In this document: one piece after another, positions 2,064 to 44,355 of the stretch
Numbering within the stretch: position 1 is the first letter of the stretch
Layout: every line of letters starts with the position of its first letter
NCBI GenBank assembly: GCA_003864475.1
Contig: BGZO01000007.1
Span: 1-51,678, forward strand
DNA: 51,678 bases
Source: Candidatus Termititenax persephonae
Lineage (GTDB): Bacteria > Margulisbacteria > Termititenacia > Termititenacales > Termititenacaceae
Direction of reading: 5' to 3'
Notes under the pieces: generated by a model
The model's input: the letters and a program-made list of their open reading frames with translations, nothing else
The model's database searches: none
Told to the model about the DNA's origin: nothing
Translations under genes and position numbers: made by a program

Positions 2064-2092
2064 TTAGAGTATATGCTTCGTTAAGCGCAAGC

Positions 2093-2155
2093 AAAAGGGC
2101 GGTTGGTGAGCCTGCGGTCATCGAGCGAAGTCGAGATGCTGCAACCACCGCCCTC
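2093..2155. repeat. Intergenic structured element with outer GGGCGGTTGGT/ACCACCGCCC arms and inner TCGAgcgaagTCGA
   Basis: Inverted repeats read from sequence after the lipoprotein stop. Confidence 0.4.
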
Positions 2156-2262
2156 TGCTTCTAAAATATTGAGAGTGTAAATTACACAGTAGTTAGAAAA
2201 AAACCAGTCCGCTGGCCGTAAATATGCTATAATTATAATAGTATCAACTTGGCGGGGGAGTT

Positions 2263-3513: not shown

Positions 3514-3516
3514 AAA

Positions 3517-4657: not shown

Positions 4658-4661
4658 ACCC

Positions 4662-5783: not shown

Positions 5784-5796
5784 CTGTCCCTCCCGC

Positions 5797-6825: not shown

Positions 6826-6828
6826 GGG

Positions 6829-7200
6829 TTAAAAAACTCCTGGAAAAATTTTGGGGACAAAAATAACCAGACCCACCACAACCGCGTTAGCGGAAGCAAA
6901 CAGCACCGCGCCCGCCGCCACATCCTTGGCCAGCCGGGCTTCTGGCCGGGATTCCTTGGTAACCAAATCCACATTGGCTTCTAGCGCCGTGTTAATCAGC
7001 TCGGCAAAAATTACCAGCGTAATGGTCAGAAACAAAATCAACCATTCGTAAGGCATAATTTTCAGGAAAGCCGCGCCGACCAACGCCAAAGCACCAGCCA
7101 CCAAGTGGACACGCATATTGGCTTCGTACTTAACCGCCCGGCCAATCCCCCGCAGCGCATAGACAAAACTTAACACCAATCGGAGGTTATGAAATTTCAT
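6829..7200 (-). CDS. dgkA: Diacylglycerol / undecaprenol kinase
   Basis: ALRGIGRAVKYEANMRVH, ELINTALEANVDLV..AKDVAAGAVL. Confidence 0.9.
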   Translation of the reverse strand: MKFHNLRLVLSFVYALRGIGRAVKYEANMRVHLVAGALALVGAAFLKIMPYEWLILFLTITLVIFAELINTALEANVDLVTKESRPEARLAKDVAAGAVLFASANAVVVGLVIFVPKIFPGVF

Positions 7201-7311
7201 ATTGCATTACATTATATAATAGAATTATCCCTTGATGGAATACCCTCTTCTTTATTCAGGCAGGCGGTCGGCCACTCCACGGCACCCCGTGAGCGGGGTA
7301 ATCTCGCCGTA

Positions 7312-7713
7312 TTATATTCGTCCGGTAACGGTTATCTTATATTTTTGCCGGACATAGGTCAGAAGCCGATTTTCCGCTACGTGCATCCGGGCGGCCGCCC
7401 GCGCCCCGGCATGGTCGTGGCCGCACAGGTGGCAGGCGGCATGAACCAATAGATAGAGCAACTCCGCCGCCAAAGAATTGCCGTAGCGCCGCGCGTTCAC
7501 GGCGGCCAGAGCCGGGCAAATGACAATATCGCCAGTCGCAAAAGACAGGACATCGGTTGGCTTATTTTGTCCGCGGAATTTTTTATTGAGTTCCCTAATC
7601 AACTGTTGGGAACAAAAAGTTACCGAAATATCTTGCAGGCCCGCGCGGCGCAAAATGGCCGTGGCGGCGGCGCGGTTAATCTTAGTTTTTACCGCCGTGT
7701 TGAAATAATACAT
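7312..7713 (-). CDS. ybeY: Endoribonuclease YbeY
   Basis: QQLIRELNKKFRGQNKPTDVLSF and metal-binding HAACHLCGHDH. Confidence 0.85.
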   Translation of the reverse strand: MYYFNTAVKTKINRAAATAILRRAGLQDISVTFCSQQLIRELNKKFRGQNKPTDVLSFATGDIVICPALAAVNARRYGNSLAAELLYLLVHAACHLCGHDHAGARAAARMHVAENRLLTYVRQKYKITVTGRI

Positions 7714-7733
7714 TCGCCCGCTCCGTAAAAAAC

Positions 7734-9149
7734 CTAGCCTTTGCTTTTGTCATTGTAGGCAATCCGGTTGTGAAACATATTGGCAACAGTCTTTTGCAAA
7801 GAAAGCTGTATCGCCGTCAATTCACGGATGGTCAAAGGGCAGTCCGCCAATTGCCCCGCGTCCAGTTTTTCCTTAATCAGCCGCCCGATAAGATTATTGA
7901 CGCGCGAGGGTGTGGGTTTTTCCAAGGTGCGCACGGCGGCCTCACAGGAGTCCGCCAGCATGATAACCGCCGCCTCTTTAGTCTGCGGTTTCGGTCCCGG
8001 ATAACGGAAATCATTCTCATTGACCAAGGTTCTTTCGCTCTCCGCCGCCTGGGCATTGGCTTCCTTGAACGTGTGCAGAAAATAAGTTACCACGCTGTCC
8101 CCGTGGTGCTGGCGAATAATGTCGATAATCAACTGCGGCAGTTTGTATTCCCGACCCAAGGCCGCGCCGTCCCGCGTGTGCGCGATGATAATCTGCGAAG
8201 ACATGTGCGGATTGAGCTGATTGTGCGGATTGTCAAAAGCGTGCTGGTTTTCCACGAAAAAAAGCGGCCGTTTTATCTTACCGATGTCGTGGTAATACGC
8301 GCCCACTCTTGCCAGCAAAGCGTTGGCCTTGATGCTCTCGGCGGCTGCGTCAGCAAGATTGGCGACAATCAGCGAATGATGGTACGTCCCCGGAGCCTCC
8401 ATCGAGAGCCTTCTGAGCAGTGGATTGGCGGGGCTGGCCAGCTCCAGAAGTTTGGTCGGCGTAATGATATAAAAAATATCCTCAATATAGGGCAACAATC
8501 CGATGATAACCACAATGGAACAAACCGCCGAAAGCAACAACGCCCCGGCATTGGCATAAAAAGAAACAAAACTGCTCTGCCCCAGCAGGCAAAACATGAC
8601 AATCGCCGCGATTCCCGCCAGCGCACTGTACACCGCGGAATAAGCCAGCGAATTGCGCTCCGTGCGGACACTGGAAAAATAGACCATAAAGAGGCCTTGG
8701 ATAGTATGAACGGTAAAGTAAAAAAAGTAATTTTCCGAACCCTGCAAAGCCAGCACAAAAGACAGGTAAATGGTCAAATAAATCGCCACCGAGCGGTTGC
8801 CGTAAACGAGCGCGTAAATCGCCGTCGCCGCGCTCAACGGCACAAGCAACGGATTGAGCGGCAGCAAATAATCAGCGGCAAGCAGCACCGAGCAGGAAAT
8901 CAACGCCAGCAAAAGAAAAATCCGTTTGGTAAAAAAAATACTGCGCGCGTGCATAGTCAGAATCTTATTAATAATCAGACCCAGCCCCGCGCCGTTTAAG
9001 ACGAGCAGGGCCAGCGCACGCCGCCAGTCAGACGGCACGACGATAATCAGCGACGACAGGACAAACCACGCCGCGGCAATTGAAAACTCAATCAAGCCAG
9101 TCCGCTTGAGAAATTCCGCCCAGTCTAATTTATTTTTCTTAAAAACCAT
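7734..9149 (-). CDS. 7TM-HD (PgpH-type) phosphohydrolase
   Basis: N-terminal multi-TM; PGTYHHSLIVANLADAAAESI, YYHDIGKIKRPLFFVENQ, IRQHHGDSVV. Confidence 0.85.
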   Translation of the reverse strand: MVFKKNKLDWAEFLKRTGLIEFSIAAAWFVLSSLIIVVPSDWRRALALLVLNGAGLGLIINKILTMHARSIFFTKRIFLLLALISCSVLLAADYLLPLNPLLVPLSAATAIYALVYGNRSVAIYLTIYLSFVLALQGSENYFFYFTVHTIQGLFMVYFSSVRTERNSLAYSAVYSALAGIAAIVMFCLLGQSSFVSFYANAGALLLSAVCSIVVIIGLLPYIEDIFYIITPTKLLELASPANPLLRRLSMEAPGTYHHSLIVANLADAAAESIKANALLARVGAYYHDIGKIKRPLFFVENQHAFDNPHNQLNPHMSSQIIIAHTRDGAALGREYKLPQLIIDIIRQHHGDSVVTYFLHTFKEANAQAAESERTLVNENDFRYPGPKPQTKEAAVIMLADSCEAAVRTLEKPTPSRVNNLIGRLIKEKLDAGQLADCPLTIRELTAIQLSLQKTVANMFHNRIAYNDKSKG

Positions 9150-10399
9150 TAGTTTATCCTCTTAATCCGCGCGCCGAGGGCGGAGAGCTTCTCGGTCAAC
9201 TTTTCGTAGCCGCGCTCAATATGCTCCACGCCGTAAATTGTCGTCTCGCCCTGCGCCGCCAGACCCGCCAGCCAAAGCGCCGCTCCGGCGCGCAGGTCAG
9301 TCGCCTTGACTTCCGCGCCGGACAAACCCGCCACACCCTCAATTATAGCAGTACGTTCTTCGGCACGTATGCGCGCACCCATGCGCTGTAACTCGCCGAT
9401 GTGCATAAAACGATTCTCAAAAATCGTCTCCCGCACTGTGCTAGCCCCTTCGGCCAAAGCCAAATAGGCCATCAACTGCGCCTGCATATCGGTGGGAAAA
9501 CCAGGATACGGCTGGGTTACCACTTGGGCGCCGCGCCAGCGCGCGCCGAGGGCGGCGGTGATTGAATTATTCTCTATCTCAAACCGGGCGCCCGTCTCGG
9601 ACAGGACAGACAGGAGCGCGGAGATATCCGCCGGACGAACATTGTTGACGGTAATTTGACCGCGGGTAATCAGCCCCGCTAAAAGCATCGTACCAGCCTC
9701 AATGCGGTCGGGGATTACCGCATGTTTCACGCCGTGCAGGGCAGACACACCGGTAATCACAATGGTCGACGACCCCGCGCCGGAAATATTCGCCCCGGCT
9801 TCATTGAGCAGGTCGGCCAAGTCAACAATCTCCGGCTCACGCGCGGCATTGGCAATCGTCGTTACGCCTTCGGCAAGCGTGGCCGCCATCATAATATTTT
9901 CCGTCGCCCCGACGCTGGGAAAAGGAAAGTTTACCTGACCGCCTTTTAATTTTTTACAACGAATCTCGATAAAACCATGCTCCAGCGAAACCACCGCGCC
10001 CAGAGCCTGAAAACCTTTGAGATGAATGTCCACCGGACGCGAGCCAATCGCACAACCGCCCGGCATCGGCACGCGCACCATGCCGACCTTGGCCAAAATC
10101 GGCCCGGCGATAAAAAACGAGGCACGCATCTTGGTAACCAATTCATAAGGAATCAAATGCTTGACCTGTTTTTTATTGACGATGCGGATTTTCCCGCCGC
10201 TTTGCTCGGCTAAAATATTAATCGAACGCAACATCCGCACCATCGTAGTAATATCGGTCAGTTGCGGTACGTTGGAGATAATGCTCTCGCCGTCCAGCAA
10301 AACCGCAGCCGCCAAAATCGGCAAAGCAGAATTTTTCGCGCCAGAAATATTAATCGCACCGTGCAGGGGCTGTTCGCCGATAATTTTTACTTTCGCCAT
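9149..10399 (-). CDS. murA: UDP-N-acetylglucosamine 1-carboxyvinyltransferase
   Basis: LHGAINISGAKNSALPILAAAVLLDGESII; PMPGGCAIGSRPVDIHLKG; PGFPTDMQAQLMA. Confidence 0.95.
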   Translation of the reverse strand: MAKVKIIGEQPLHGAINISGAKNSALPILAAAVLLDGESIISNVPQLTDITTMVRMLRSINILAEQSGGKIRIVNKKQVKHLIPYELVTKMRASFFIAGPILAKVGMVRVPMPGGCAIGSRPVDIHLKGFQALGAVVSLEHGFIEIRCKKLKGGQVNFPFPSVGATENIMMAATLAEGVTTIANAAREPEIVDLADLLNEAGANISGAGSSTIVITGVSALHGVKHAVIPDRIEAGTMLLAGLITRGQITVNNVRPADISALLSVLSETGARFEIENNSITAALGARWRGAQVVTQPYPGFPTDMQAQLMAYLALAEGASTVRETIFENRFMHIGELQRMGARIRAEERTAIIEGVAGLSGAEVKATDLRAGAALWLAGLAAQGETTIYGVEHIERGYEKLTEKLSALGARIKRIN

Positions 10400-23550: not shown

Positions 23551-23652
23551 ACCGCGCGAGGGCGCAAGCCGTATGCTCCATGTACGGCAATATCAGCGCA
23601 AAGCATTTTAATCCACGTAGCGGAGGTGTCCAGCAACGCACGGGTGTACGGC

Positions 23653-23684
23653 GTTTCAATCCACGTTCCTGTATGAGGAGCGAC
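23653..23684 (-). repeat. Isolated type I-C-like CRISPR repeat unit (GTCGCTCCTCATACAGGAACGTGGATTGAAAC on minus strand)
   Basis: 32 nt, 30/32 identical to the copy at 29256; GTCGC...GTGGATTGAAAC typical of I-C repeats. Confidence 0.6.
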
Positions 23685-23880
23685 CTGTCCCCAAGTCGGC
23701 TGTACAGGCGTTATTCCTGACATATTTAACCTCCAAAAGTGGTGTAAGTCGCGCCCTGCCCAGCGCGTCATCGTATGCCCACATGCGACCATTTTGCCTG
23801 AAATAAATAATTTTTCCATTAGATTTTTGAGTAAAAAACTGGACATTGATTTTTTCAGGGAAAATGCTAGAATTTTAGCG

Positions 23881-24539
23881 ATGAGTTATAATAGATTTTC
23901 ACCCCCCCCCCCCCCCCCCCCATTTTTTCGCTTAGGTACGCCAAAAATCTAACATATTATTGCAAGCGATTTGCAACAATAACCCTGCTGTCCCTGTTTG
24001 TTGTCGGCTGCGGGGTAACAAAAGATGCTTCGGGCGGCGGCGGGAGCAGTAGCGGCACCGCGCCGCCAAGCGCTCCGGTGGAGCCTAAGTTTTACACGCT
24101 GACAATATCGAGGCGCAAGGATGTAACCGCACCAACGGTTAATTTTTTCGTGGACACGGTGCTGATTGAGAATACCGATTGCCCGCGCTCCTCAAAAGAA
24201 TACAAGGACCCGAACTACCCATACGACACAAATAATCCCCATTATTGGTTTAAGGACATTTCCTATACCCTGACGGAGAATACAAAAGTTTACGCCGTGT
24301 TAAATACCAATATTGTGGGAGCCGACTGGCAAAAACATAATTATTTTAGTTTTGAGGTCAGTAAAAATATTGGGACAGAGAACACCCTAACAAAATATTA
24401 CGCGCAAGAAAAAGATGCGACGCTGGAGCTCGTAATGACCGCTAATTATATTGTCAGCAGATTTGCTCTTGATTGGTGGTCATATTCCCAGTATGACCCT
24501 GACAGCAAACCGCCGAATATTATTACAAAGCCGGAGTGA
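23881..24539 (+). CDS. Candidate phase-variable lipoprotein (frame OFF as assembled)
   Basis: ATG AGT TAT AAT AGA TTT TCA (C)20 then frame IFSLRYAKNLTYYCKRFATITLLSLFVVGC-G; in frame only when C count is a multiple of 3. Confidence 0.6.
23902..23921 (+). repeat. Poly-C tract (20 C)
   Basis: Direct count. Confidence 0.95.
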
Positions 24540-25442: not shown

Positions 25443-26000
25443 TTATTTATTAAGCCCGCAACACTTTTTATATTTTTTACCACTCCCACATGGGCATGGT
25501 TCATTTCTTCCAATTCTATCAAAGCCAACTTCTGGCATAACATAAGAATGTTTCATAAAATCAATATGTCCAATTGACGGTATACGGAATGAAAAAACTG
25601 TTTTTTTGTTAAAATTAGAAATTGCAAAATCACCCACCGTAATAATATCCATTCCTATTAACATATCACATCCTTGGGGAGTTCCTTCTACAACCAACAC
25701 ATTGCTTACCTTTACTTTGTTCGGCAAACCTACATTTACATAATAAAGATTACTCGGAACATCTTTTTCACTAGGGGTGCTTATCAATGTTTTTGACACA
25801 ACACTTAAATCAAGTTTCCTTGCTATTTCTGGTCTTATTAAAGAACAACTTGCCCCGGTATCCCACAACGCTTTAACTTTTTGGGTTTTATTCGTATTAT
25901 AAGCATTCTCAATTAAAACTTCTGTTATAAGTCCTCGCAATAACCCATTCTGGGAAACATATGTGAAACTATAACTTTGGCGCTGAGATGTATTTGCCAT
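25443..26000 (-). CDS. Retropepsin-like aspartic protease with C-terminal SEC-C zinc-binding motif
   Basis: [22 protein letters not shown]-terminal [19 protein letters not shown]. Confidence 0.8.
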
Positions 26001-29287: not shown

Positions 29288-29829
29288 CCAGCGCGGACAC
29301 GGCGACCTCCGCGCCCTGAAAAAATATGTACATCTTGCTTGGATTGGCATTCCTTGTGGTGATGACCAGCCCGGACTGGTGGCCGACCGCAAGCGAGCCG
29401 AGTTGCGCACCGTATACGATGCTGTTGTTGGACGAATTTTGGTAAAAAAACCTCAGCCTTATCCTGATGGAATTTACTGTCGCCCCCGTGCCGAGCGCGG
29501 GAAAATCCCGGACTGCGAGTACGTCGGTAAATTTTGGCCGCCGTACCCCCAGAGCCAGAGCTTGTTGGTCGCGTTGTACGCGATGCTGGTGTTCGATGCC
29601 TGCGATATGGTGTACTGCCTCTGCGTGGACATGTCGTCCGACCACGCCGTCGTCCTCGCGCGGCCAAGGATGCCCGTGATTTGCGCCCGCTCCGGCGCAC
29701 CCGCCTGCGAGATGTCCTCCACCCTCGCCGAGGGTATGGGACTCTTGATTGCGTACCATATCGGTCGACAGAAACATTGACACCCTGCGAGGGCGGTAGT
29801 ATTCTTGTAGCGTTTTCACTAAAAAGCAA
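29280..29829 (-). pseudogene. Frameshifted ORF of unknown family
   Basis: Natural-looking peptide moves across frames at a CCC and a GGGGG run: NATRILPPSQGVNVSVDRYGTQSRVPYP / SARVEDISQAG...TYSQSGIFPRSARG / ATVNSIRIRLRFFYQNSSNNS... Confidence 0.45.
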
Positions 29830-29841
29830 CCGGAGCGTAAA

Positions 29842-30452
29842 GTGTTTAGGTTTATTTTACCCCCCCCCCCCCCAATTTTTCGCGTAGGCACGCCAAAAAC
29901 ACAGCACATTATTGCAAATACATCGCAATAATAATCCTGCTGGCGTTCTTCTCCGCAGGTTGCGGTAAGACAGCGGAGCAAACCGACAGCGGAAGCTCTG
30001 TCGCATCGCCCAGTACTCCTACTCCGCCGCCGGAAACGCCTAAGGTTGTAGCCGAGGACTTGCGCGGGGAGTGGTATTCGGAATATGGAATACAAAAATA
30101 TCCAGTAACATACGGGGATATATTAAAATCATATGCTGATATATATTTGTATCGCTTCACAATAACCAGCGCGACAATGAATATGAAGAACGGAAACTCT
30201 TTTAATGCGTATACGACCGAAAATAGAATTGCCATAAAAGAAACAGACGAAACTATTTATACTTTTACCCGTATTCCCTTATCGGAATATCAGCAGGCTT
30301 ACGATGATGCCGTTGTTGAGGGAAACCCTGGGAAAATACTACAAGCGCAGCATAGGCTTGATGCCGCGCTGGTGCATACTCCAATAGATTTTACTAGCAA
30401 TAATGTTACGACCCGACTATGGCGCGAGCCGGAAACATGGCCAGCGGAATAA
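29842..30452 (+). CDS. Candidate phase-variable lipoprotein (frame OFF as assembled)
   Basis: GGAG-N6-GTG TTT AGG TTT ATT TTA (C)14 then frame NFSRRHAKNTAHYCKYIAIIILLAFFSAGC-GK; in frame only when C count is a multiple of 3. Confidence 0.65.
29860..29873 (+). repeat. Poly-C tract (14 C)
   Basis: Direct count. Confidence 0.95.
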
Positions 30453-30497: not shown

Positions 30498-30779
30498 ATG
30501 GCAGAAAAGAATAAGAGTGAACAGGAATCGGAATTACTTGAATGGAGTGCTTGGACTTTTTTTAAAATAACTGGAATGGTAATTTTCATTGGGATAGGAA
30601 TTCATAGAATTTTTGTACCGCCGGAAATTGTGGGCGGAGATGCATATAACTATATAATTGGAACTTTACAAGCCGTTTGCTCTTTCATTCTTGCGCTTAT
30701 TTTAGCTGTTCTGTATAAGGGCACAAATGTAGAGACGATAGTTAAGGCGGAAAAAAGGCCTGAATCTAAAAAAAAATAA
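30498..30779 (+). CDS. Hypothetical small membrane protein
   Basis: RBS taggaggcttatcATG; two TM segments. Confidence 0.6.
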   Translation: MAEKNKSEQESELLEWSAWTFFKITGMVIFIGIGIHRIFVPPEIVGGDAYNYIIGTLQAVCSFILALILAVLYKGTNVETIVKAEKRPESKKK

Positions 30780-32284: not shown

Positions 32285-34354
32285 ATGGCAGAAGATGCAG
32301 GTTATATTTACGCTGGAATTGTTTTCGACACTACGCAACTTGAGCAAGGCGTGGTTAAAGCCCAAGCCTCTGTAGATGCAGTCGAGAAAAAAATTAAAAA
32401 ACAAAACGAAAATATAAGCAATCTTACCCAAAAAAACATAAATGGCTTTTTTAAGGCATGGGAAAAAGGCTTTGCGTCCAGCGGCCAAAGATTGGGGCGA
32501 TTATTGTCCTCGATGTTTAACCCCTTGACGCTTGGTATAGGGGCATTGACTGTAGCCATAGGAAAAGCAACATCTGCAATCTCTGAAGCCATTAAGCGGC
32601 AACGCGATTATAATAAAGCCCTGAAAGATGGCAAGGACATTGCTGCGTCTGCCACAAAAGAAGTTACTAATTATGGAGATAAAGTAAAAACTGCTGGTGA
32701 TAGACAAAAAGTTTTTGTGTCAGCAGTTCAAAAAGCACAAGAGGCGCAACGTAATTACAATCTCGCTATGAAAGAGGCCTCTCGAATAGACGATGGCGAA
32801 AAGCGCAAAGAGGCAGAATTAAATGCCGCAAAGCAACTTAACACCGAAGTTTTTACCAATTTGGAACGGCTCAAGGAATCTCGTGAAAACGGAGAAAAAG
32901 AGCTGGAAGCGGCCCAAAAACGGCTTGAGTTAGCGCAAAAATATGGGGGCTTTTTGGGATACATAAATACCAATGCAAAAAGCGCACTTGATACTATGGA
33001 GATACAGGTAAAAAGCCTGGAAAAACAAAATGCTGAATATGACGAACAGATAAAAACATGGCAAGACCTTGATGCCGAACAACAAAGCTCCATCAAAAAC
33101 TCGGAAACATTGACGCGGACAAAAGAGGAGCAGAAAAAATTAGACGATGAGCGAAAAAAAGTTGAGAGCGCAATAAATGACGCTAATGAAAAAGCGGCCA
33201 TGGAATTGAAACATGCGCAAGAGGATTATAACGCTGGCCACATAACAATCGAGCAGCGCGATGAAAAAATTTTATCCGTAGTAAAGCAACAGCGAGAAAC
33301 GATGCAGGATATACGAGACACGGCTGCCGAATATCCCGACTTGCTAAAAGAAGCCGCGGACAAGGTCGTTGAGCTTGACGGAGCGTTGGGGAAACTCAAC
33401 CAAAAAGGGAAGTCCTGGTTTAATAATTTGCTAGATTGGACGAAAGAAAACGAAAACGCCATTACTGCATCAAAAGATATTTTTGTGGCTATGGTTGATT
33501 TGCAGACCGCCACGATGAATCGCGCACTTGAAGACCAGTTGGCGGTTGTGGAAGAAACATTAGCCGCCCAGCAGGAAATGTTAGATGCGCAATATGAAAT
33601 AACGATGTCTAAACTGGAAGAGGAACGGCAGGCCGCGCTTGAGGCCGCAGGGTTTGTGGCGGCCACTACAGAGGAGAATTTATCCGCGGCGATGGAAGCC
33701 GCTATAGCTTCCGGCGATGAGGGCGTGATATACCGCGAAAAACGCAGGCAGGAAGAACTGAAAATCAATCAGAAATACGACAAGCTGGAAAAACAGGCAG
33801 AACTGGATAAAGAAAAAGCCGAAAAAGAATTACAGGAACAGGCCGCGCGGGAAAAAGCAGACCTTGAGTACCAAATGGCCATGAATACTTGGGAACAGCA
33901 ACTCATACAGGCTCATCTTGATTTGGCCACCGGAATCATAAAATCATGGGCGCAGGGCGGTGGCTTGATTGGTGGAATTCTTGCCGCTCTTACGGCGGCG
34001 GCCGGCGCGATACAAATTCAGACAATTCAGCAAAGTAAACCTAAACAGCCGGCCTTTGCCGCTGGCGGTGTTATAGGTTTGCCGCAAACATACAGTTACG
34101 CAAATGGCGGCATCGTGGACAGCCCGACACCACGCGGCGTGGACGCCGTGCAAGCCACGCTTGCTAACAGAGAGATGATACTTAATGATAGCCAGCAGGC
34201 TAATTTGTTTAATGCTATCAACTCCGGCGCGGTCAATGGCGGAATTAGCCTGACCCTCAACACAATACTGGACAGCGAAATTATTGCCACGAGAACCATT
34301 GAGCTGGTCAATAACGGCATAACCCAAACTATAGATAATCGAATGGTGGTGTAG
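32285..34354 (+). CDS. Tape-measure-like phage tail protein
   Basis: Long coiled coil, then Ala/Gly-rich hydrophobic segment and IQTIQQSKPKQPAFAAGGVIGLPQTYSYANGGIVDSPTPRGVDAVQATLANREMIL. Confidence 0.75.
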   Translation: MAEDAGYIYAGIVFDTTQLEQGVVKAQASVDAVEKKIKKQNENISNLTQKNINGFFKAWEKGFASSGQRLGRLLSSMFNPLTLGIGALTVAIGKATSAISEAIKRQRDYNKALKDGKDIAASATKEVTNYGDKVKTAGDRQKVFVSAVQKAQEAQRNYNLAMKEASRIDDGEKRKEAELNAAKQLNTEVFTNLERLKESRENGEKELEAAQKRLELAQKYGGFLGYINTNAKSALDTMEIQVKSLEKQNAEYDEQIKTWQDLDAEQQSSIKNSETLTRTKEEQKKLDDERKKVESAINDANEKAAMELKHAQEDYNAGHITIEQRDEKILSVVKQQRETMQDIRDTAAEYPDLLKEAADKVVELDGALGKLNQKGKSWFNNLLDWTKENENAITASKDIFVAMVDLQTATMNRALEDQLAVVEETLAAQQEMLDAQYEITMSKLEEERQAALEAAGFVAATTEENLSAAMEAAIASGDEGVIYREKRRQEELKINQKYDKLEKQAELDKEKAEKELQEQAAREKADLEYQMAMNTWEQQLIQAHLDLATGIIKSWAQGGGLIGGILAALTAAAGAIQIQTIQQSKPKQPAFAAGGVIGLPQTYSYANGGIVDSPTPRGVDAVQATLANREMILNDSQQANLFNAINSGAVNGGISLTLNTILDSEIIATRTIELVNNGITQTIDNRMVV

Positions 34355-34355
34355 G

Positions 34356-35276
34356 ATGATTTTTTTGCCGAACGAAACCAAAGAAATGCGCATGTATTCC
34401 GAACACGAATACGCTTTTAACCCAGAGGACTTTTGGGTTTATCAGTACAACGCGCCGAGGATATATGACAGTTATTCCCAGCTTGAAGAAGGCTATGCCA
34501 TGACAGACCTTGACGACACCGCATATCAAAACAACATTTTATTTAAAGGCGACGGAGCGGTAATCACCGGACATTTTTCAGAGCCGACACCGGTCAATAG
34601 TTTGATATTAGGAAACTGCAACGGACACTCTTGTCAGTTGTCGCTTTCCGGTCAGGGCGGGACAGAGGATTTGTGGGGCGGCGTAACGGAACTTCTTACG
34701 GAAAATAATCAATATTTATTGGCGGAAAACGGTTATCGTTTGGCGGCGGACGGGGATAATCCCGAATTGCCAATTAGCAGACAGCTCGCGCCCGGCCAGT
34801 CCCAGCCGTCTAGCCTTGACCAAAAACTATGGATATACCACAACTTGACTACATTTCTGGCAACCGATTTTTCGCTGACTATTTACGGATCAGAACCGGT
34901 AAGCTTATGCTATCTTTACATCGGCATGAGGACGGGCTTGCCGAGGCCGGAGACAATATCCGCGCAAATGGACATCAACAGCACGTATTCGCGCAACGCC
35001 TATGGTCAGGTATCCGGCATGAGACAGAGAAGCTTTAGGAGTGTTGCGGCTAGTTATCCTCTGATGGACGACCGCCAGCGGCGCATAGTAGAGGAGTATG
35101 TAAATAACGTGCAAACTTGCGAGCCGCATGTCATCAACCCAATGCATCACAAACAGGAATATATCCAGCCGATGTACTGCACGCTTGCCGCCAACAAATT
35201 GGGAAATCAGAAAAATAAAAACCTGCGCGGCTGGTGGTGGGAAGGCAACGACTTGAGCTGGTCAGAGGCGGAATAA
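34356..35276 (+). CDS. Phage tail protein (distal-tail-like position)
   Basis: Position after the tape measure gene; no family recognised from sequence alone. Confidence 0.5.
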   Translation: MIFLPNETKEMRMYSEHEYAFNPEDFWVYQYNAPRIYDSYSQLEEGYAMTDLDDTAYQNNILFKGDGAVITGHFSEPTPVNSLILGNCNGHSCQLSLSGQGGTEDLWGGVTELLTENNQYLLAENGYRLAADGDNPELPISRQLAPGQSQPSSLDQKLWIYHNLTTFLATDFSLTIYGSEPVSLCYLYIGMRTGLPRPETISAQMDINSTYSRNAYGQVSGMRQRSFRSVAASYPLMDDRQRRIVEEYVNNVQTCEPHVINPMHHKQEYIQPMYCTLAANKLGNQKNKNLRGWWWEGNDLSWSEAE

Positions 35277-37255
35277 TGCAAACGCTTTTGGAAATAAGCT
35301 ATACATCAGAGCTGCTAATATCGACGATATACGACACTCCGGTCTGGCGTATTTTGCTCTGGCGCATAGGAGAAATGCTGGATTTTATGCAGGATACTTA
35401 TAATACCACTCCGATAAAAGTTGACAGCGTGCGTGTGGGTTTGCAGCAGTACTCACTTGCGCTGTCTATCGAAGCGGTCAAGGCCGAAGCGCAAACTTAC
35501 TATATTGAGGATAATTGGTTGTATGTCCACTACAAAGCCCTAGAGGAAAATGCCGAATATGCGTCTGCGCAAGATTGGCGCGTGGACAAAGACTACAATA
35601 CCACGCAAGGCTTTACCGATGGCGACGCTCTGGTGATAAGCGGCTTTAAGTATCAACCTAGGCTTTCCACTCCGGCGGCGCAAAAAATATCTAGCGACTT
35701 ATACAAATACGACAAAATGAAATTCAACACGTCCAAACTGACGTTAAATCGCAAATATAGCCCAGATTATTATTATAATTTTTTTGGCAATAAGAGCGTG
35801 CTGAAAACGCCAGATGGAGAGGTTATCTCTGACCATTTTATCGAAAAAATAAATATCACGGACAGCACGGTAAATTTTGAATTGAAAGACAGCCGCGCCA
35901 GATTGACCGATATGGTAGTCGCGCAACAGCCAGTTTTTTTTAACGAAAACGGAAACAACGTTGTAGACCCGGAAGCCAAAAAACAATATTTGCAAGATGC
36001 TGTCGGATATTGCCGAGGCGTGCCGTGCGTGTGCTTGAATGGTTATGCTTTTGATACGATGAATAAAAGAATTTACCGCGCCTGTTTTGATACATTCGTA
36101 CCCGATAGAAGTCTTATCATGGACGGCAGAGAAATTGCTGTAGAGATTGAGATAGAGAACGGCTGGCTTCCTTTGTCTTTTTCTCCTGCGCCTGACCCAA
36201 GTACAAGTGCGCCAATATACTGGATAGAAACCGTACAGGAAGCCGACGAAAAGGGCGGCAGTCATACCACAACGGTTATCTGCGTGCCTATATATGTCGC
36301 CCACCCACCAGAGGCCGGAACAGCAATTCCAACTTACCATGATACGCCTCGCAGAGTGCGTGTTACCGGCTGGTTTCACGCGGAAAGATTTTCTGTAGCG
36401 GAAAGAGACCATATTACGCGCCCGTACGAAATATTGCGCTACCTCATTGAGCGGTGGTCTAGTCTGCCTTACTCCATGGATAACTGGGACATTGAAGAAT
36501 TAAGCAGCGAACTTGGCTTGCTAAATAATTTTCCCGTTGGAATTTTTATAGAAAAGCCGACTGATTTTTTCAACATCATCGAAAAACTACAGAATGGCTC
36601 GCGATACGGCTGGACATTATGCACCAATAACGCCAAATTGACCGCACGCGTTGACCTGCCACCGCATGACATCTATACGGGGCAAGGACGCCAGATCGCC
36701 AAGACCATAAAATCTACCGATATAATGGCATGGCCGGAACGCAAAATCAGCACCAATGCGGACACATACGCATCGTCCATTGATATAGGATACAGCAGGC
36801 TCTATAGCGCAAGTGATGAAGAAGCAAACGATATTAGATATATAGATTCATCGCTTGAGACTGTTATTTTACGCCAGCGACGTATACCGAAAAGATTGCA
36901 GATAGACACGTTACTTAAAAATGAGATTGACGCAAGAGCGCGTGCGTCTGACTATCTCAATGATTATAAAAATATCAATATCACGGTGGACGGCATTAAA
37001 TTACACGGCAAAAAATGGTTTGGCTTGCGGCAGTATGATTACATAAATATCGACCTTTCGATTAAGGGACTGGACGTGCAAAAATTCTCGCCTGCTCAAC
37101 AGGCGTTCCTGTCCGCACTGGGCGTGGACATATCACCGGATAACGTCGGCGCAGAAAAATACGGCAACGATAATATAATTATGAAAGTTATGCAGGTTCA
37201 AACCGATATATACAACGAAACTGTAACGCTTAATTTGCGTTCGATGAATTTGTAA
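35276..37255 (+). CDS. Phage tail/baseplate hub-like protein
   Basis: Start taken at MQTLLEISYTSELLI overlapping the upstream stop; position in tail cluster. Confidence 0.5.
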   Translation: MQTLLEISYTSELLISTIYDTPVWRILLWRIGEMLDFMQDTYNTTPIKVDSVRVGLQQYSLALSIEAVKAEAQTYYIEDNWLYVHYKALEENAEYASAQDWRVDKDYNTTQGFTDGDALVISGFKYQPRLSTPAAQKISSDLYKYDKMKFNTSKLTLNRKYSPDYYYNFFGNKSVLKTPDGEVISDHFIEKINITDSTVNFELKDSRARLTDMVVAQQPVFFNENGNNVVDPEAKKQYLQDAVGYCRGVPCVCLNGYAFDTMNKRIYRACFDTFVPDRSLIMDGREIAVEIEIENGWLPLSFSPAPDPSTSAPIYWIETVQEADEKGGSHTTTVICVPIYVAHPPEAGTAIPTYHDTPRRVRVTGWFHAERFSVAERDHITRPYEILRYLIERWSSLPYSMDNWDIEELSSELGLLNNFPVGIFIEKPTDFFNIIEKLQNGSRYGWTLCTNNAKLTARVDLPPHDIYTGQGRQIAKTIKSTDIMAWPERKISTNADTYASSIDIGYSRLYSASDEEANDIRYIDSSLETVILRQRRIPKRLQIDTLLKNEIDARARASDYLNDYKNINITVDGIKLHGKKWFGLRQYDYINIDLSIKGLDVQKFSPAQQAFLSALGVDISPDNVGAEKYGNDNIIMKVMQVQTDIYNETVTLNLRSMNL

Positions 37256-37290
37256 AATTTTTCATTTATGTTTTTTCTCTAAAAACCTTT

Positions 37291-37318
37291 TTGAGAAAAA
37301 TGACTTCCGTAATAAAAT
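37291..37318 (+). promoter_or_regulatory. Phage-type promoter TTGAGA-N16-TAAAAT
   Basis: Same element as 32251-32278. Confidence 0.5.
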
Positions 37319-37346
37319 TATAAACAACACGAGAAAGGACAATTCG

Positions 37347-37832
37347 ATGGCCGACGAACAGGCAGTAAAAATCTCCGCTTTACCGGCGCATAGCGGAAAC
37401 ACAATAGCCTCTGGGTCATTATTCCCGATGACTAATATGGCAGGCGAACCGGTTACGGAGAAGCTGACTATTGAGCAGTTGACGGCTGCATTATCGTCAG
37501 TAGGCGGCGTGATACTGACTGCTACGCTTACCACAAGTGGGGAAACCAAGACATTTAATTATGGCACTACGACAACGCTTGTTACCACGGATATAAACGG
37601 GCTTGCATTGCCTAACGGCGCAGGTGTTGCCTTCGCAAATCTCAATGCAGGTAATACGATTTTTCTGTTTCACTCCGATAATAGTTTTGCGGCGGCAATT
37701 ACCGTTAGGGTTAAAGTTACGGTCAGCCAGATAACGGCCAATACTATTTTGCTTGAGCCGCCGGTCAAATCGGTCAACTGGGCAAAGGGCGTGGTCGTCC
37801 TTGACGGCAATAATATCAACGTGGAGTACTAA
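37347..37832 (+). CDS. Phage structural protein, hypothetical
   Basis: Position; RBS gaaaggacaattcgATG. Confidence 0.5.
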   Translation: MADEQAVKISALPAHSGNTIASGSLFPMTNMAGEPVTEKLTIEQLTAALSSVGGVILTATLTTSGETKTFNYGTTTTLVTTDINGLALPNGAGVAFANLNAGNTIFLFHSDNSFAAAITVRVKVTVSQITANTILLEPPVKSVNWAKGVVVLDGNNINVEY

Positions 37833-37833
37833 C

Positions 37834-39933
37834 ATGGCGCAAATGACACTAAACAATGCTTTGGCAAAAATAAAAACTGATATTGGCGACGACGCGATAG
37901 CATCAGGCGCGCTGACGGCCACGGACATAGCCACGGCTAAAATCGCGCTGACCAAAGGCGATGCGACAGTAATAAATATCTCCCTGTCGGACTTACAAAA
38001 TATCCTGCTCAAACGCTCCGCGACGCACGCCAACGGGTCAACCAATTTAAACAACAATGACAATAACGACGGCTTTTCCGCACTGTCTACCGAAACTGAC
38101 ACCAACTCCATAGGCGGTTTAGAAACCAACTCCGAAGCGGATAATCCAGTAGTGGCCGGAATGTATCTAAAACATAACGTAAATACGGACGACAATGTGC
38201 GGATATTGCTCATGAATAACGGCACGACAAAAGAGGCTTATTTGCTAAAGAATAAAGCCGTACCGACAACAAGAAATGCTATTGCCCCGAACGACAAACT
38301 TGTTAATCTGGGAGAAATAAATACCCTGATCGCTACGGCCTTGTCCACTTTTTCGGACGGCGGTTTGAAAACTCCGGTGTCGCTGGATAAAGAGAGCAAC
38401 CTGCCGGATATAGCGACAGCGGAAAAAGGCGATTATTATGTTATTGCCGACATGGACGTAAAGTCTCCCGACGTGCAGAAACAAGGCCGCGCCTGGTACA
38501 ATCCCGATGAAAGCACCACGGACTGGCAGAAAATAGTTGACTTGGTGCAAGCCCCTGACGACGAAACCATCGTGCTTAACGAGGATAGCCAGTTAGCAAT
38601 TAGCGAAGATTTGGTAGACCTTATCGATGGCGCGGTGCAGGGAAGCCAGATAGACACGTCCGAACCCACCGCAAGCAGCACGGACAATCAACTTACATCG
38701 GCTAAAAGATTATGGGAAATGTTCGGCGCGGCATTATCGACGCTGACCACAACAGCAAAAACGGTGGTGGGTGCGATAAATGAGTTGGTGTCCGGCAAGG
38801 CCGACAAAGTAACTTCTGCCACTTCCGGCAATTTTGCCGGACTGGACAGTAACGGTAATCTTTCGGACAGCGGTAAAAAGACAGCGGACTTCGCCACGGC
38901 ATCGCAAGGAACGAAAGCGGATAACGCGCTTCAGCCAGTAACAAACCCGACAGCAGGTAATTTTGCCTCGTTGACTTCGGGCGGAGCGGTGCAGGACAGC
39001 GGCGCAAAGACATCTGATTTTGCCACCGCCGCGCAGGGGGGGAAGGCCGACACAGCCGTACAGCCTGCGGACTTGGCTTTTAGCCCAATCCCTGCCGCCC
39101 TGCTCACCGCTTTATACGCCGAGGGATTTAACACTTCAGCTTCCGGCAACGCCCTTGCCGCCGCGCTAATCGCGCTGGCCAACAACAGCCAGTATTCAGG
39201 CTATGTGAATTTCGAGACCAAGACCGGCATGAATTTGCCCAACACGACCGGCACGGGATTTACCGGCACGCTCAAATTGTACAAATCCATAACCGGCGCT
39301 TACGTCCGCGCGGAATTATTTATGGAAGGCGACAGAACGACCATATCCATAGCAGGAGCGTGGGAGTGCAAATGGCTGATAACTAGCGGCAACGCTAACC
39401 TGCAAACTTTAAATGCGTATTCCCCTAGAGGCTGGACTAACTTAATGCCGCCAACCAGCATAATAAACCCCTCGATAATTTGGCGCGACGGGACAAAATC
39501 CAATTTATTTACTGTCAGCCAGACAGCGGCTAATGTCGTATCTTTTGCTTACACGGCTGGTTCTGCGTGGGCGATCAATACTGCCGGTACTGCGATTTCC
39601 TTTCCGCTGTTTCAGGCAGGCACTGTAATTTATGATTTGCAGGGCATAAATGATATAACGCTAACCACCTCGACGTTCACTTTTCAACCCCTTTTAATTG
39701 GCGCGGCTATAACAATAGGCGTTCGCATCACACCTACAAATGGCTTGGAGTGGTGTTACAGTATTGACGAGCCAACTGTTTTTAGGAATATTGCGTTTCA
39801 AAAATTTATACCAGTTTGTATTATCGACCAGTCCAGCATATTAGTTCCTTTTGACAATTATGTTAATCGCTGGACGGCAAACGCGGCTCACACTCTGACC
39901 TACTTTTCAGCGCAAGTGAATACCCTGACGTAA
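37834..39933 (+). CDS. Phage tail-fibre-like protein
   Basis: Internal repeats TSGNFAGLDSNGNLSDSGKKTADFATASQGTKADNALQ / TAGNFASLTSGGAVQDSGAKTSDFATAAQGGKADTAVQ; start at MAQMTLNNALAKI. Confidence 0.65.
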   Translation: MAQMTLNNALAKIKTDIGDDAIASGALTATDIATAKIALTKGDATVINISLSDLQNILLKRSATHANGSTNLNNNDNNDGFSALSTETDTNSIGGLETNSEADNPVVAGMYLKHNVNTDDNVRILLMNNGTTKEAYLLKNKAVPTTRNAIAPNDKLVNLGEINTLIATALSTFSDGGLKTPVSLDKESNLPDIATAEKGDYYVIADMDVKSPDVQKQGRAWYNPDESTTDWQKIVDLVQAPDDETIVLNEDSQLAISEDLVDLIDGAVQGSQIDTSEPTASSTDNQLTSAKRLWEMFGAALSTLTTTAKTVVGAINELVSGKADKVTSATSGNFAGLDSNGNLSDSGKKTADFATASQGTKADNALQPVTNPTAGNFASLTSGGAVQDSGAKTSDFATAAQGGKADTAVQPADLAFSPIPAALLTALYAEGFNTSASGNALAAALIALANNSQYSGYVNFETKTGMNLPNTTGTGFTGTLKLYKSITGAYVRAELFMEGDRTTISIAGAWECKWLITSGNANLQTLNAYSPRGWTNLMPPTSIINPSIIWRDGTKSNLFTVSQTAANVVSFAYTAGSAWAINTAGTAISFPLFQAGTVIYDLQGINDITLTTSTFTFQPLLIGAAITIGVRITPTNGLEWCYSIDEPTVFRNIAFQKFIPVCIIDQSSILVPFDNYVNRWTANAAHTLTYFSAQVNTLT

Positions 39934-39943
39934 GGAAAATGAA

Positions 39944-40213
39944 ATGGACATCTCGGACATCATCAATTACATCGTTACCATTGTCGGTCTGGGCGCGTCC
40001 TTTGTCAGCATTGGTGTGTCCTACGGGTCGCTGAAAAACAAAGTTGAGCAGCACGCCGAGGACATCAAAAACCACCGCGAAAATATCGGCAAGCTGTTTG
40101 ATGCGCAGCGCGATGTGTCCACGCTCACCGCGAAGCTGGAAGGGCGGTTGGAAGTTATAGAGACCACGCTCAACCGCATAGCCGAAAAGATTGAGCGCGT
40201 GCTGGAGAGGTAA
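39944..40213 (+). CDS. Holin/XhlA-like single-TM protein
   Basis: N-terminal TM then coiled coil; directly before endolysin. Confidence 0.5.
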   Translation: MDISDIINYIVTIVGLGASFVSIGVSYGSLKNKVEQHAEDIKNHRENIGKLFDAQRDVSTLTAKLEGRLEVIETTLNRIAEKIERVLER

Positions 40214-40216
40214 ATA

Positions 40217-40624
40217 ATGGGCTACAGACCGCAACATTACAAGATACAGGAGCTGGTCAATCCGAAACTCCTATCGGAGTTTGGCGAGGCTAAATGCTGG
40301 GAAATGTTAGATGCTGATTTGCTTTACATGGCCGACGCTATAAGGGATAAGTACGGGGCTATCGGAGTTAATTATGGCGGCCTTGTGGACTGCGGCTTGA
40401 GGGACTGGCGCAACCCGACGACTGGAAGCAGCGCAAGCGCGCACTGCCATGGCAAAGCATTAGATTTACATATCTTAAACATTCCGCAGACAGTAGGGGC
40501 TTATGACAAAGTGCGCGAGGAGTTACTCGACAATGCTATGTTTTTGCGGCTCTGTTTTGAGACCGGCGTTAATTGGCTACACATCGACATAAATAATCGT
40601 GAATACCGGACGTTTAGCGCATGA
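40217..40624 (+). CDS. M15-type peptidase, probable endolysin
   Basis: SAHCHGKALDLHI and NWLHIDI zinc-ligand motifs. Confidence 0.8.
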   Translation: MGYRPQHYKIQELVNPKLLSEFGEAKCWEMLDADLLYMADAIRDKYGAIGVNYGGLVDCGLRDWRNPTTGSSASAHCHGKALDLHILNIPQTVGAYDKVREELLDNAMFLRLCFETGVNWLHIDINNREYRTFSA

Positions 40625-40782
40625 GCCAGATGGTGAGCGACTTTATCCGCAAGGAAGCGGAGAAAGACATGACGAAAAAGAAATTATCGGAACTTACGCT
40701 AGCGGATTGTTTGGCGGATAAGGCGGAGCGTCCGAGAAACTGGGAGATAAAAACAACTATTCAAAACGGGGGAAATGAATAG
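40621..40782 (+). CDS. 53-aa hypothetical protein
   Basis: ATGA overlap with the endolysin stop; MSQMVSDFIRKEAEKDMTKKKLSELTLADCLADKAERPRNWEIKTTIQNGGNE. Confidence 0.45.
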   Translation: MSQMVSDFIRKEAEKDMTKKKLSELTLADCLADKAERPRNWEIKTTIQNGGNE

Positions 40783-40889
40783 TTTTGTTATGGATTGTGA
40801 ATAATTGGCCGCGTGCCGTGGAACATTGATATAGGGTTTGTGTAATTTGCGTGAAATAACATTATGCTATAATGTTATAGGGGTTTACT

Positions 40890-41129
40890 ATGATAATCAA
40901 AAAAGATGCGCCCAAGGACAAAATGTTGTTAGAGTTTTCCAATGGCGACATTGAAAAGTTCAAAGATGTCATGGGAAAATACAACTTCAAGGATGAGCAG
41001 TCTTTGATAAGATTTGTTTTGAGTGTGCTGTTGGTTACAGAGGATAATGAAGTACAAATAAAAAAAGATGGTGTTTTTACGCCGGTGGTTCCCGCCAACC
41101 ACTCAATAAAAGGCGGCGAACATGTCTAA
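40890..41129 (+). CDS. Hypothetical protein
   Basis: ORF overlapping the next start. Confidence 0.5.
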   Translation: MIIKKDAPKDKMLLEFSNGDIEKFKDVMGKYNFKDEQSLIRFVLSVLLVTEDNEVQIKKDGVFTPVVPANHSIKGGEHV

Positions 41130-41466
41130 AAACCCAAAGGGCGTCGATAATTTTGAGCCCCTCAAAGAAATACAATCTACACTTGATAAAATAGTCCACC
41201 CTGACCAATTTGCTAAAGTATTCTGTAACGCAGCTAGAACGCAATCAAGTATTAAAGATTGTTTGAGTGAAACCATAAGAGACACGCTATTGAAAGACAA
41301 AAAATTTGATAAATATTTTGAAGATGCCGCTAAAAAAGTTATTAAGGAAGACAGGTATTATTTTTGGGTTAATTTAAGCCGCGGGTTTGAAAAGATTTTC
41401 CTAGTTGTTCTTGGAGCGGTTATTACTTTCGTTTTTAATCTGTTTTCTAAAAAACTAGGCGTTTAG
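41122..41466 (+). CDS. Hypothetical protein with C-terminal TM
   Basis: RBS aaaggcggcgaacATG; IFLVVLGAVITFVFNLF. Confidence 0.5.
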   Translation: MSKNPKGVDNFEPLKEIQSTLDKIVHPDQFAKVFCNAARTQSSIKDCLSETIRDTLLKDKKFDKYFEDAAKKVIKEDRYYFWVNLSRGFEKIFLVVLGAVITFVFNLFSKKLGV

Positions 41467-41538
41467 TTAATCAAGTTCTATATTTTCTAATAACAATCTC
41501 ACAAACCCTATTCAGTGAAAAAAATATAGGAGCAACTT

Positions 41539-41925
41539 ATGAGCATCTGGGCTTGCCCAAAGTGCAAAGTATTAACAAACACTCCCGTGTGCCAGAAGTG
41601 CGGGAGCGCGACGGAGCGTGTCGAGCAGCAAATATCCAGCGCGGATATAAGCAATTATACGCCCGTGTCGATAACGTACACCGAGCCGCCAAAGCCAGAG
41701 AATACGCAGGAGAAACCGCAAATGCTAAAAAAATACATCGCCGAAAGCCTTGACGAGATGACACCCAATAAGGTTGTTGGCTACATCATTGCCTTGTGTG
41801 GTGTTGTCGGATTTTTCATGCGGTTGGATTCCAGTATAGCGCAGATTTGTATACTTGGCGGCCTTGCGCTGTGCGGCATATCGGACAAAATAGATGCGGA
41901 TTATTACGGCAAAAAGGAGCAATGA
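41539..41925 (+). CDS. Zinc-ribbon membrane protein
   Basis: CPKCKVLTNTPVCQKCG; hydrophobic C-terminal half. Confidence 0.6.
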   Translation: MSIWACPKCKVLTNTPVCQKCGSATERVEQQISSADISNYTPVSITYTEPPKPENTQEKPQMLKKYIAESLDEMTPNKVVGYIIALCGVVGFFMRLDSSIAQICILGGLALCGISDKIDADYYGKKEQ

Positions 41926-42152
41926 TGTGGCAGATAATTATTTTAGTAATCCTTGGCGTTGCTGTATTTGTTTACATCAAATGCCGGAAAGGAAGCAAGC
42001 AGCATGATGCGGCAAAAAAGATTATTAGCGAGTTTAATTCTATGTCTGACGCTTCTAAATGGGAACTTGCTCGCGGCCTCGACAGCAGGATTAACGACGG
42101 CGGACGCTACAGAGGGGACACCGCCCAAAAGCCTGATCGAGATGCAACTTGA
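41922..42152 (+). CDS. Small N-terminal TM protein, possible inner spanin-like
   Basis: aaaaaggagcaATG; MMWQIIILVILGVAVFVYIKCRKG. Confidence 0.45.
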   Translation: MMWQIIILVILGVAVFVYIKCRKGSKQHDAAKKIISEFNSMSDASKWELARGLDSRINDGGRYRGDTAQKPDRDAT

Positions 42153-42294
42153 CGCTTATGCGGCGAAAGTAAGGTATGAGACGTTAGAGGAGATACAGGC
42201 GGACCGGATAAAGGATAAAGAAGCGCAAATACAGCGGCAATGGTGGCTGAATATTGCGCTAATTATTGCGCTGGGTTATGCGGCTGGAAAATAA
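42004..42294 (+). CDS. Small protein with signal-like N-terminus and C-terminal TM, out-of-frame overlap with 41922 gene
   Basis: ggaaaggaagcaagcagcATG; MMRQKRLLASLILCLTLLNGNLLAAS...WWLNIALIIALGYAAGK. Confidence 0.5.
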   Translation: MMRQKRLLASLILCLTLLNGNLLAASTAGLTTADATEGTPPKSLIEMQLDAYAAKVRYETLEEIQADRIKDKEAQIQRQWWLNIALIIALGYAAGK

Positions 42295-42310
42295 ATAAAG
42301 GAGTTTAATC

Positions 42311-42677
42311 ATGGCAGAAATAAGAAAGGCAAGATTATCTATATTTACAATGCAGGAGTGGCTTAATCCAACAGGCGCGGCATACAATCTTGATGGATGT
42401 TGGTGATAACGGCATTTACGGCGTGGCTATCGGTATTGATCCTGCTGATAATAACAGAATAGATATTCGCGTCAGTAACGGAGCGCAAAAATTCCGTGAA
42501 TTAAAATCAATGGCTCTTACGCTGGAAAATTTAGCCCCGTTATTAAATGGCGTATATCAGCGTGAACTTGTGGCCGGAAATAATATCACTAAAACAGAAC
42601 AAATACTAGTACAAACGGCAAACGAGGTTGGCCTATACGAGGATTTTGTAGTACAACTAATATCAACACATCAATAA
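42311..42677 (+). pseudogene. Hypothetical gene with +1 nt frameshift
   Basis: Good RBS and MAEIRKARLSIFTMQEWLNPTGAAYNLD, then the frame continues as DVGDNGIYGVAIG... if one G is removed from gatgGatg. Confidence 0.55.
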
Positions 42678-42740
42678 TAATCAGTAATATTTGCTAAAAT
42701 ATCCCGCATGGTATAGTATATCGACAGGGAGATAACCATA

Positions 42741-42908
42741 ATGCTTATATGCCCATACTGCAAGCACAAAATCAACAAAGCCGATATAGCCGCTTACCTT
42801 GGATCAATAACTAGCAAGCGCAAATCAAAAGCTAGCCGCGCAAACGGCAAACTTGGCGGTAGGCCAAAAGGCGCAAAAGATAAAGCCCCGCGTTTTCGCG
42901 GCAAATAA
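42741..42908 (+). CDS. 55-aa basic Zn-finger-like protein (MLICPYCKHKINKADIAAYLG...GGRPKGAKDKAPRFRGK)
   Basis: Read directly; not in the supplied ORF list. Confidence 0.5.
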   Translation: MLICPYCKHKINKADIAAYLGSITSKRKSKASRANGKLGGRPKGAKDKAPRFRGK

Positions 42909-43015
42909 TTTTAATTTTATTTTCTAATTTTTTTTTGCAAAAAACCTAAGAGCATTTCGGCAAACTTTTCTATAATTTACCTACAATGACCCTGGTCATC
43001 TTTACACCCCTTCCC

Positions 43016-43077
43016 AGGAGTGCTACAATCATTATGCCTATAATGACTGGCACTCCTATTTTTTTTAAAAGCCGCTG
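43016..43077 (+). terminator. Terminator with nested stems AGGAGTG...CACTCCT and CATTAT/ATAATG followed by T run
   Basis: Perfect arms and poly-T; a second hairpin AAGCCGCTG...CAGCGGCTT follows. Confidence 0.65.
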
Positions 43078-43332
43078 CTACTAACAGCGGCTTTTACATA
43101 TCACAATATAAGACTTTCAATTTAATCACCTACCTTTCTGCCAGTTAAAACAGAAATTGTCCCAAAAATAAAATTTAGAAAAGCCGGTACTGATAAAATT
43201 TGTGTTGAAATTGTTTGACATCTACACACAACCTTTCGTCGCGAGGCATTAGTCGGTGTAGGTGAAGATATTATATACAGTTAGCACCACAAATTTAACT
43301 TTTTAAAGCATATTATAGTGAACCAAATATAA

Positions 43333-43376
43333 AAACTTGATAACATATTGACAAATCAAGTTTGTAGTGATAAAAT
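43333..43376 (+). promoter_or_regulatory. Sigma70-like promoter TTGACA-17-TAAAAT with a 9-bp operator-like inverted repeat spanning the -35
   Basis: AAACTTGAT (43333-43341) / ATCAAGTTT (43355-43363); TTGACA 43348-43353; TAAAAT 43371-43376. Confidence 0.65.
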
Positions 43377-43383
43377 TCTCATC

Positions 43384-43542
43384 ATGAAAGCTTGGGGTGG
43401 AAAACGTAGGGGCGCAGGCCGAAAGAGGATAGACAGGGAATTACAAATTCCGAGGTCTATAGCGTTGAGCAACTTTTTATGGGGCAAGTTTAATAAACTC
43501 GGCGGTGTGGTATGGTTAAGAGAGTTTTTGAGAAAACAATAA
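43384..43542 (+). CDS. Small basic DNA-binding-like protein
   Basis: MKAWGGKRRGAGRKRIDRELQIPRSIALSNFLWGKF. Confidence 0.5.
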   Translation: MKAWGGKRRGAGRKRIDRELQIPRSIALSNFLWGKFNKLGGVVWLREFLRKQ

Positions 43543-43560
43543 AAAAAGAGGTTATGGGTT

Positions 43561-44355
43561 ATGAACGAATTAGAATTATTTGCTGCTTATATGTCCGGCA
43601 AGGGCTGGAAAGAAATAACAAAATATACTTATAAAATTATCATCAAAAATTTCATATCAAATAATCCTGACTATCGATATTTTGACAGCACAAAAGCCAG
43701 AAATTTAGTAAATGCCATACGGCAGACAAAGACACGTAAGACCACAAGGCAAATGGTAATTGTGTTCAAATACTTTTATCACTGTTTAGGACTTGATCCG
43801 CAAATATGGAATATCCGCATTGTGCCGGAGCGAAAAATACCAAAGCATTTATCACAAGAAAAAATCAACTGTATATTAGACAACATACAGGGTGAAGACA
43901 TTTACACAATAAGAGACAAGGCGATATATGAACTTATATATGCTGCAGGATTGAGAACTTCCGAAGTGCGAGACGTAACCATATCCGATATAAATTCAAA
44001 AGAAATGTACATAAAGATCGGCAAGAAACGCGCTTATTTTGGCAATAGGGCAAAAGAAGCAATAATAAAATATCTCAATATTAGAGAACAATTTAACCCT
44101 GTTAGCGAGCAATTATTTTTAAATGTACATGGCAAACCTATAAGCCGCCAAAAAATACTTTCAAGATTAAAAAAATATTCAGGCTCAAGCCCATTGGAGT
44201 TGCGAAATTCTCTAGCCGTGCATCTTTTTGATAATGGCGCGGATGCAAAATCGGTGCAAAAAATAATGCGCTATCGCAGAACTAATCATATAAATCGTTA
44301 TGTAGAATTAAGCAAGCCATTCAAAGACAAAATGTTAGGTTATGCGAGCCTGTAA
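43561..44355 (+). CDS. Tyrosine recombinase-like protein with degenerate catalytic residues
   Basis: Core-binding plus catalytic fold AAGLRTSEVRD ... SPLELRNSLAVHLFDNGADAKSVQKIMRYRRTNHINRYVEL; both usual His replaced. Confidence 0.75.
   Translation: MNELELFAAYMSGKGWKEITKYTYKIIIKNFISNNPDYRYFDSTKARNLVNAIRQTKTRKTTRQMVIVFKYFYHCLGLDPQIWNIRIVPERKIPKHLSQEKINCILDNIQGEDIYTIRDKAIYELIYAAGLRTSEVRDVTISDINSKEMYIKIGKKRAYFGNRAKEAIIKYLNIREQFNPVSEQLFLNVHGKPISRQKILSRLKKYSGSSPLELRNSLAVHLFDNGADAKSVQKIMRYRRTNHINRYVELSKPFKDKMLGYASL

Follow-up and report, generated by a model that had tools for sequence, protein, structure and literature searches.

Does a run of cytosines placed between a start codon and a lipoprotein reading frame decide, through its length, whether the lipoprotein is made? 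This question is raised by a locus in a 51,678-nt stretch of Candidatus Termititenax persephonae DNA (the window), in which a GTG with a Shine-Dalgarno (SD) sequence is followed by five further codons, 14 consecutive cytosines and a long open frame. The features of this locus are the following:

29777-29805, plus strand: sigma-70-like promoter, TTGACA-17-TATTCT (10 of 12 matches; one found, 0.3 expected)
29832-29835, plus strand: SD sequence GGAG, 6 nt (N6) 5′ of the GTG
29842-29859, plus strand: GTG start and five codons (GTG TTT AGG TTT ATT TTA) 5′ of the tract
29860-29873, plus strand: poly-C tract, C14, a putative frame switch (ON at multiples of 3 and OFF at the assembled length)
29874-30452, plus strand: predicted lipoprotein ORF 3′ of the tract, 192 codons and a stop (TAA, 30450-30452)
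29876-29899, plus strand: 24-nt inverted repeat TTTTTCGCGTAGGCACGCCAAAAA, which stops one frame and, read in the lipoprotein frame, gives a basic n-region
29929-29931, plus strand: TAA at which the GTG frame ends with the C14 of the assembly, giving a 29-residue peptide
29961-29963, plus strand: lipobox cysteine codon (FFSAG-C), from sequence and translation
30498-30779, plus strand: next gene, a 93-aa predicted membrane protein

A first-pass annotation had described GGAG-N6-GTG, six codons, C14 and then a lipoprotein frame, and this order is indeed found at 29832-29873. Its arithmetic also holds for the sequence as assembled: the distance from the GTG to the tract is 18 nt, so the GTG joins the 192-codon frame, which from 29874 reads NFSRRHAKNTAHYCKYIAIIILLAFFSAGC-GK, only with a C count divisible by 3, and 14 cytosines lead instead to the product VFRFILPPPPPIFRVGTPKTQHIIANTSQ. 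The C14 allele would consequently be OFF, a call that is unsure because homopolymer counts in a draft assembly may err by one or more. A simple repeat thus separates the start codon from the main frame, and its length sets the frame. After the tract, the lipoprotein frame runs for 192 codons without a stop, compared with 10 and 12 stops in the two remaining frames of the plus strand. The first ATG, GTG or TTG after the tract is at residue 63, 3′ of the lipobox cysteine, and translation must therefore cross the tract, as no start codon is placed to bypass it. In keeping with this, promoter, SD and GTG all lie immediately 5′ of the tract.

From this anatomy, the locus is very probably a case of translational phase variation by slipped-strand mispairing. 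Translation from the GTG at 29842 would cross a hypermutable tract read as proline codons, and the signal peptide of the lipoprotein would be reached only at C counts that are multiples of three. Slippage in vivo would alter the count, and the cells of a population would consequently differ in lipoprotein production. Contingency genes for surface structures or glycosylation in Campylobacter, Neisseria and Helicobacter have their reading frame fixed by a homopolymer close to the 5′ end, and the window tract, in a like position, would have the same effect. By contrast with those genes, the window has its poly-C on the coding strand, a palindromic frame filter follows the tract, and the host is an uncultured Margulisiibacteriota symbiont.

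A companion locus with the same arithmetic, as had been claimed, is also found in the window:

23846-23873, plus strand: promoter-like TTGATT-16-TAGAAT
23881-23901, plus strand: ATG and six further codons 5′ of the tract, without a clear SD
23902-23921, plus strand: poly-C tract, C20, under the same divisible-by-3 rule and OFF as assembled (with the same uncertainty in the count)
23922-24539, plus strand: lipoprotein ORF, 205 codons and a stop
23924-23947, plus strand: inverted repeat TTTTTCGCTTAGGTACGCCAAAAA

Just 5′ of this locus, at 23603-23666, there are two short repeats, GC[AG]TTT[TC]AATCCACGT, with the look of a CRISPR-array remnant. The two loci had been regarded as independent, which they are not, as both carry a poly-C and inverted-repeat module that occurs throughout the genus.

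It might be argued that the tract is mainly a 5′-UTR or leader element whose length tunes expression, and that the lipoprotein is translated from another site, such as a rare start codon after the tract. In the genus, the module does mostly take the form of a separate leader ORF 5′ of a gene with its own ATG. Nevertheless, we consider this explanation unlikely for the window, where neither locus has an ATG, GTG or TTG before residue 63 (residue 53 in the companion), beyond the cysteine in both cases. In addition, no second SD was found between tract and signal peptide at either locus, and a search for a terminator after the C14 tract found none, the signal peptide following directly.

The predicted product has the attributes of a bacterial lipoprotein, provided that the frame is in phase: a basic n-region (RRHAK..K), a hydrophobic core (YIAIIILLAFFSAG) and the lipobox cysteine can be read in the sequence. 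Secretion would follow from these features, and a surface location is suggested by the lipobox. Regarding the mature domains, no Pfam or PHROG match was found above the cut-off, and AlphaFold single-sequence models of the mature lipoproteins are of low confidence (mean pLDDT 44-45). The codon usage of the lipoprotein frame is the best of the six, but weak, at -0.08 bits per codon, compared with 0.40-0.50 bits per codon for three reference genes on the same measure. The gene may thus be decaying, and it could be supposed that the lipoprotein is a pseudogene, or that an assembly error has altered a fixed in-frame tract, so that there is no switch. The long homopolymers of a draft assembly would fit this second explanation, as would the four of 39 tracts in the genome that lie at contig ends, which are compatible with length heterogeneity but also with sequencing dropout. 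We find it improbable all the same, as 192 codons are fully open, the same design is in frame in a relative, and similar paralogues differ in tract length.

The relative in question (L110, genome G003) has a C14 tract that places a related lipoprotein in frame from its ATG, while in another (L111, G001) a C17 tract leaves a related lipoprotein out of frame from an SD-bearing GTG. In both, the first ATG, GTG or TTG after the tract lies beyond the cysteine, at residues 67 and 68, respectively. These relatives keep the poly-C and the signal peptide, and the part in common is essentially the signal-peptide region, whereas the mature proteins differ. Additionally, in L114 (1-110, G003:C60) a pentanucleotide, (ACACA)n, takes the place of poly-C directly 5′ of a related lipoprotein frame. 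Among paralogous leaders whose 100-nt upstream flanks are 78-93% identical, tracts of C12, C12, C13, C14, C18 and C20 were found. Such unlike lengths fit mutable tracts, although they are draft-assembly values with uncertain exact counts, compared between paralogues and related species.

Poly-C is far more abundant than expected by chance, with 18 C9 matches in the window and 0.21 expected (none of 100 shuffles reached 18). Runs of at least nine cytosines occur at the 39 places mentioned above in the 1.83-Mb draft genome, whose sequence was read in the stretches around the tracts. Loss of mismatch repair was considered as a cause of the long tracts and rejected, since mutS and mutL are both encoded in the genome; with MutS and MutL present, slippage need not be unusually fast.

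At about 30 sites across the genus, poly-C is followed by a 24-nt inverted repeat, TTTTTSGCKTARRYAMGCCAAAAA, and the motif that the first-pass annotation had put forward for a genome-wide search, TTTTTCGC[GT]TAGG[TC]ACGCC, is the first part of this repeat. With up to three mismatches allowed, the repeat is present in each of the six genomes of the genus, mostly directly after a run of at least eight cytosines, and a reversed control pattern was almost never matched. Among 84,980 species, C9 followed by the repeat was found at nine places, all of them in Candidatus Termititenax aidoneus or in Margulisiibacteriota MAGs; the T. aidoneus and Gx481_bin108 loci carry sequences identical to those of G001 and G003, and a kinship listing places the window genome in the same genus as these two. 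The module is found genus-wide, but many other gene types lie 3′ of it, mostly via a separate leader ORF. Likewise, the proposal of a family of switchable lipoproteins is favoured by the same design in related species, while the shared motif does not define lipoproteins; a lipoprotein-specific motif was rejected, as it also lies at the leader ORFs of other genes.

The effect of the repeat is that of a frame filter: together with the adjoining flank, it closes two frames by nucleotide 57 in 27 of 30 modules and keeps the third open to nucleotide 63 or more, with 13.8 such modules expected from shuffles, a count that we take as support and not as a clean test because the modules are related and the shuffles overstate their independence. 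The repeat would stop one frame internally and, usually, a second one just 3′, and the open frame would add basic residues before the hydrophobic core. Hairpin pairing is kept at 89% of cells, compared with 38-61% for slid versions, and covariation is modest, its score being reached by 24 of 500 shuffles; the hairpin may also have a role as RNA or DNA.

Being multicopy, with upstream and downstream flanks common to several loci, the poly-C and repeat could also be a mobile or recombination site (the end of an insertion sequence or the target of a diversity-generating retroelement) that lies before lipoprotein genes by chance. We regard this as very improbable, as the module lies regularly between an SD or start codon and a frame or terminator, and the reverse transcriptases are of the defence types DRT3 and UG39, not diversity-generating. 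A retroelement target site, in particular, was rejected since the three RVT_1 genes are all of DRT type (DRT3a, DRT3b and UG39). A phage-borne module was also rejected: the C9 and repeat pattern had no match in viral contigs, though some modules lie 5′ of tail-fibre-like genes.

Poly-C is found in three arrangements, in which gene names such as tail-fibre-like, glycosyltransferase-like and methyltransferase-like come from reading the sequences and not from family searches. In the first, the tract and its repeat are continuous with a long frame, as at the two window loci, L110, L111, L139 (a secreted protein) and L051 (methyltransferase-like); glycosyltransferase-like frames are likewise continuous with poly-C, but with no repeat. 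The second is commoner and consists of a short leader ORF 5′ of terminators or other genes, in the order promoter-like region, SD, short ORF, tract, repeat, strong terminator, short gap and next gene, the latter including tail-fibre-like proteins and lipoproteins. One multicopy family of such leaders (L014, L019, L029 and L040-L043) has a common upstream region, tracts of C12 to C20 and a peptide of the form ..GHSDNRAA..VVLS..Y-PPP, and lies 5′ of tail-fibre-like genes. At seven leader loci (L019, L040, L041, L042, L053, L057 and L058), only the open frame reaches the terminator and the others stop earlier; the eighth row of the terminator list, L031, is not of leader type.

In the third arrangement, poly-C lies between -35-like and -10-like hexamers. 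There are seven such tracts (L024, L094, L127, L136, L142, L147 and L158), whereas shuffling the flanks among tracts gives 1.4 (and 6 at most in 2000 shuffles). Five of the spacers measure 14-17 nt and the other two 19-20 nt, and a downstream gene was recognised by script for six of the seven tracts, being a lipoprotein in all six. These tracts resemble that of opc in Neisseria meningitidis, for which a variable poly-C in the promoter is described (PMC3447861, citing Sarkari 1994); the window locus differs in having its tract in the coding region. Another family of poly-C, lacking the inverted repeat, is seen at L039/L069 (G000:C40) and L044, which are tandem genes, each 3′ of CATGCAAGT-C11/12-ATCGATATATAG.

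For the leader arrangement, there is a precedent. In Streptococcus gallolyticus, phase variation through a leader peptide has been tested by mutation at pil1 (and pil3), two pilus loci with GCAGA repeats, and out-of-frame changes at pil1 move the leader stop into or past a terminator, raising downstream transcription (PMC3894217). As in pil1, the short leader ORF of the Termititenax leader modules contains a simple repeat, and promoter, SD, leader, repeat, terminator and gene follow one another in the same order. By contrast, these modules join poly-C to a conserved inverted repeat by which two frames are closed, and they occur at many loci; the window loci differ further in having the module fused to a lipoprotein, with no terminator. 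On this analogy, the leader modules would probably, if with clearly less confidence than the frame switch at the window locus, act by a translation-dependent escape from termination: ribosomes in the open frame would advance into the intrinsic terminator, and the next gene could then be transcribed. The literature found describes a combination of attenuation and repeat-based phase variation for the S. gallolyticus pilus operons. If the leader modules work as their anatomy suggests, one genus would use this attenuation switch as a general-purpose device at many genes.

More tentatively, and with slightly less than even confidence, poly-C and its palindromic frame filter may be seen as a portable cassette that has spread through one symbiont genus and been joined to different outputs. 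In this view, some secreted proteins would be fused directly to the cassette, tail-fibre-like and lipoprotein genes would be attenuated through a leader peptide and, where the repeat is absent, poly-C would act as a promoter spacer. If this is true, each genome would hold tens of independent random switches, many of them on surface genes. Termititenax-type bacteria have been reported attached to ectosymbiotic spirochaetes of termite-gut protists (title of Utami et al. 2019, in the reference list of PMC7228121), and, with such a partner-attached lifestyle, a switchable surface becomes a testable question on how attachments are kept.

Some other features deserve mention. Phage-like genes lie on one strand at 32285-44355 of the window (a weak tape-measure match, an endolysin and an integrase), with the lipoprotein gene at the upstream edge of this region. 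At 25443-26000, on the minus strand, there is a predicted aspartyl protease with a C-terminal SEC-C motif. Finally, the defence-type reverse transcriptases, UG39 and the DRT3a/DRT3b pair, are found at L070 (G000:C9), positions 2051-10153.
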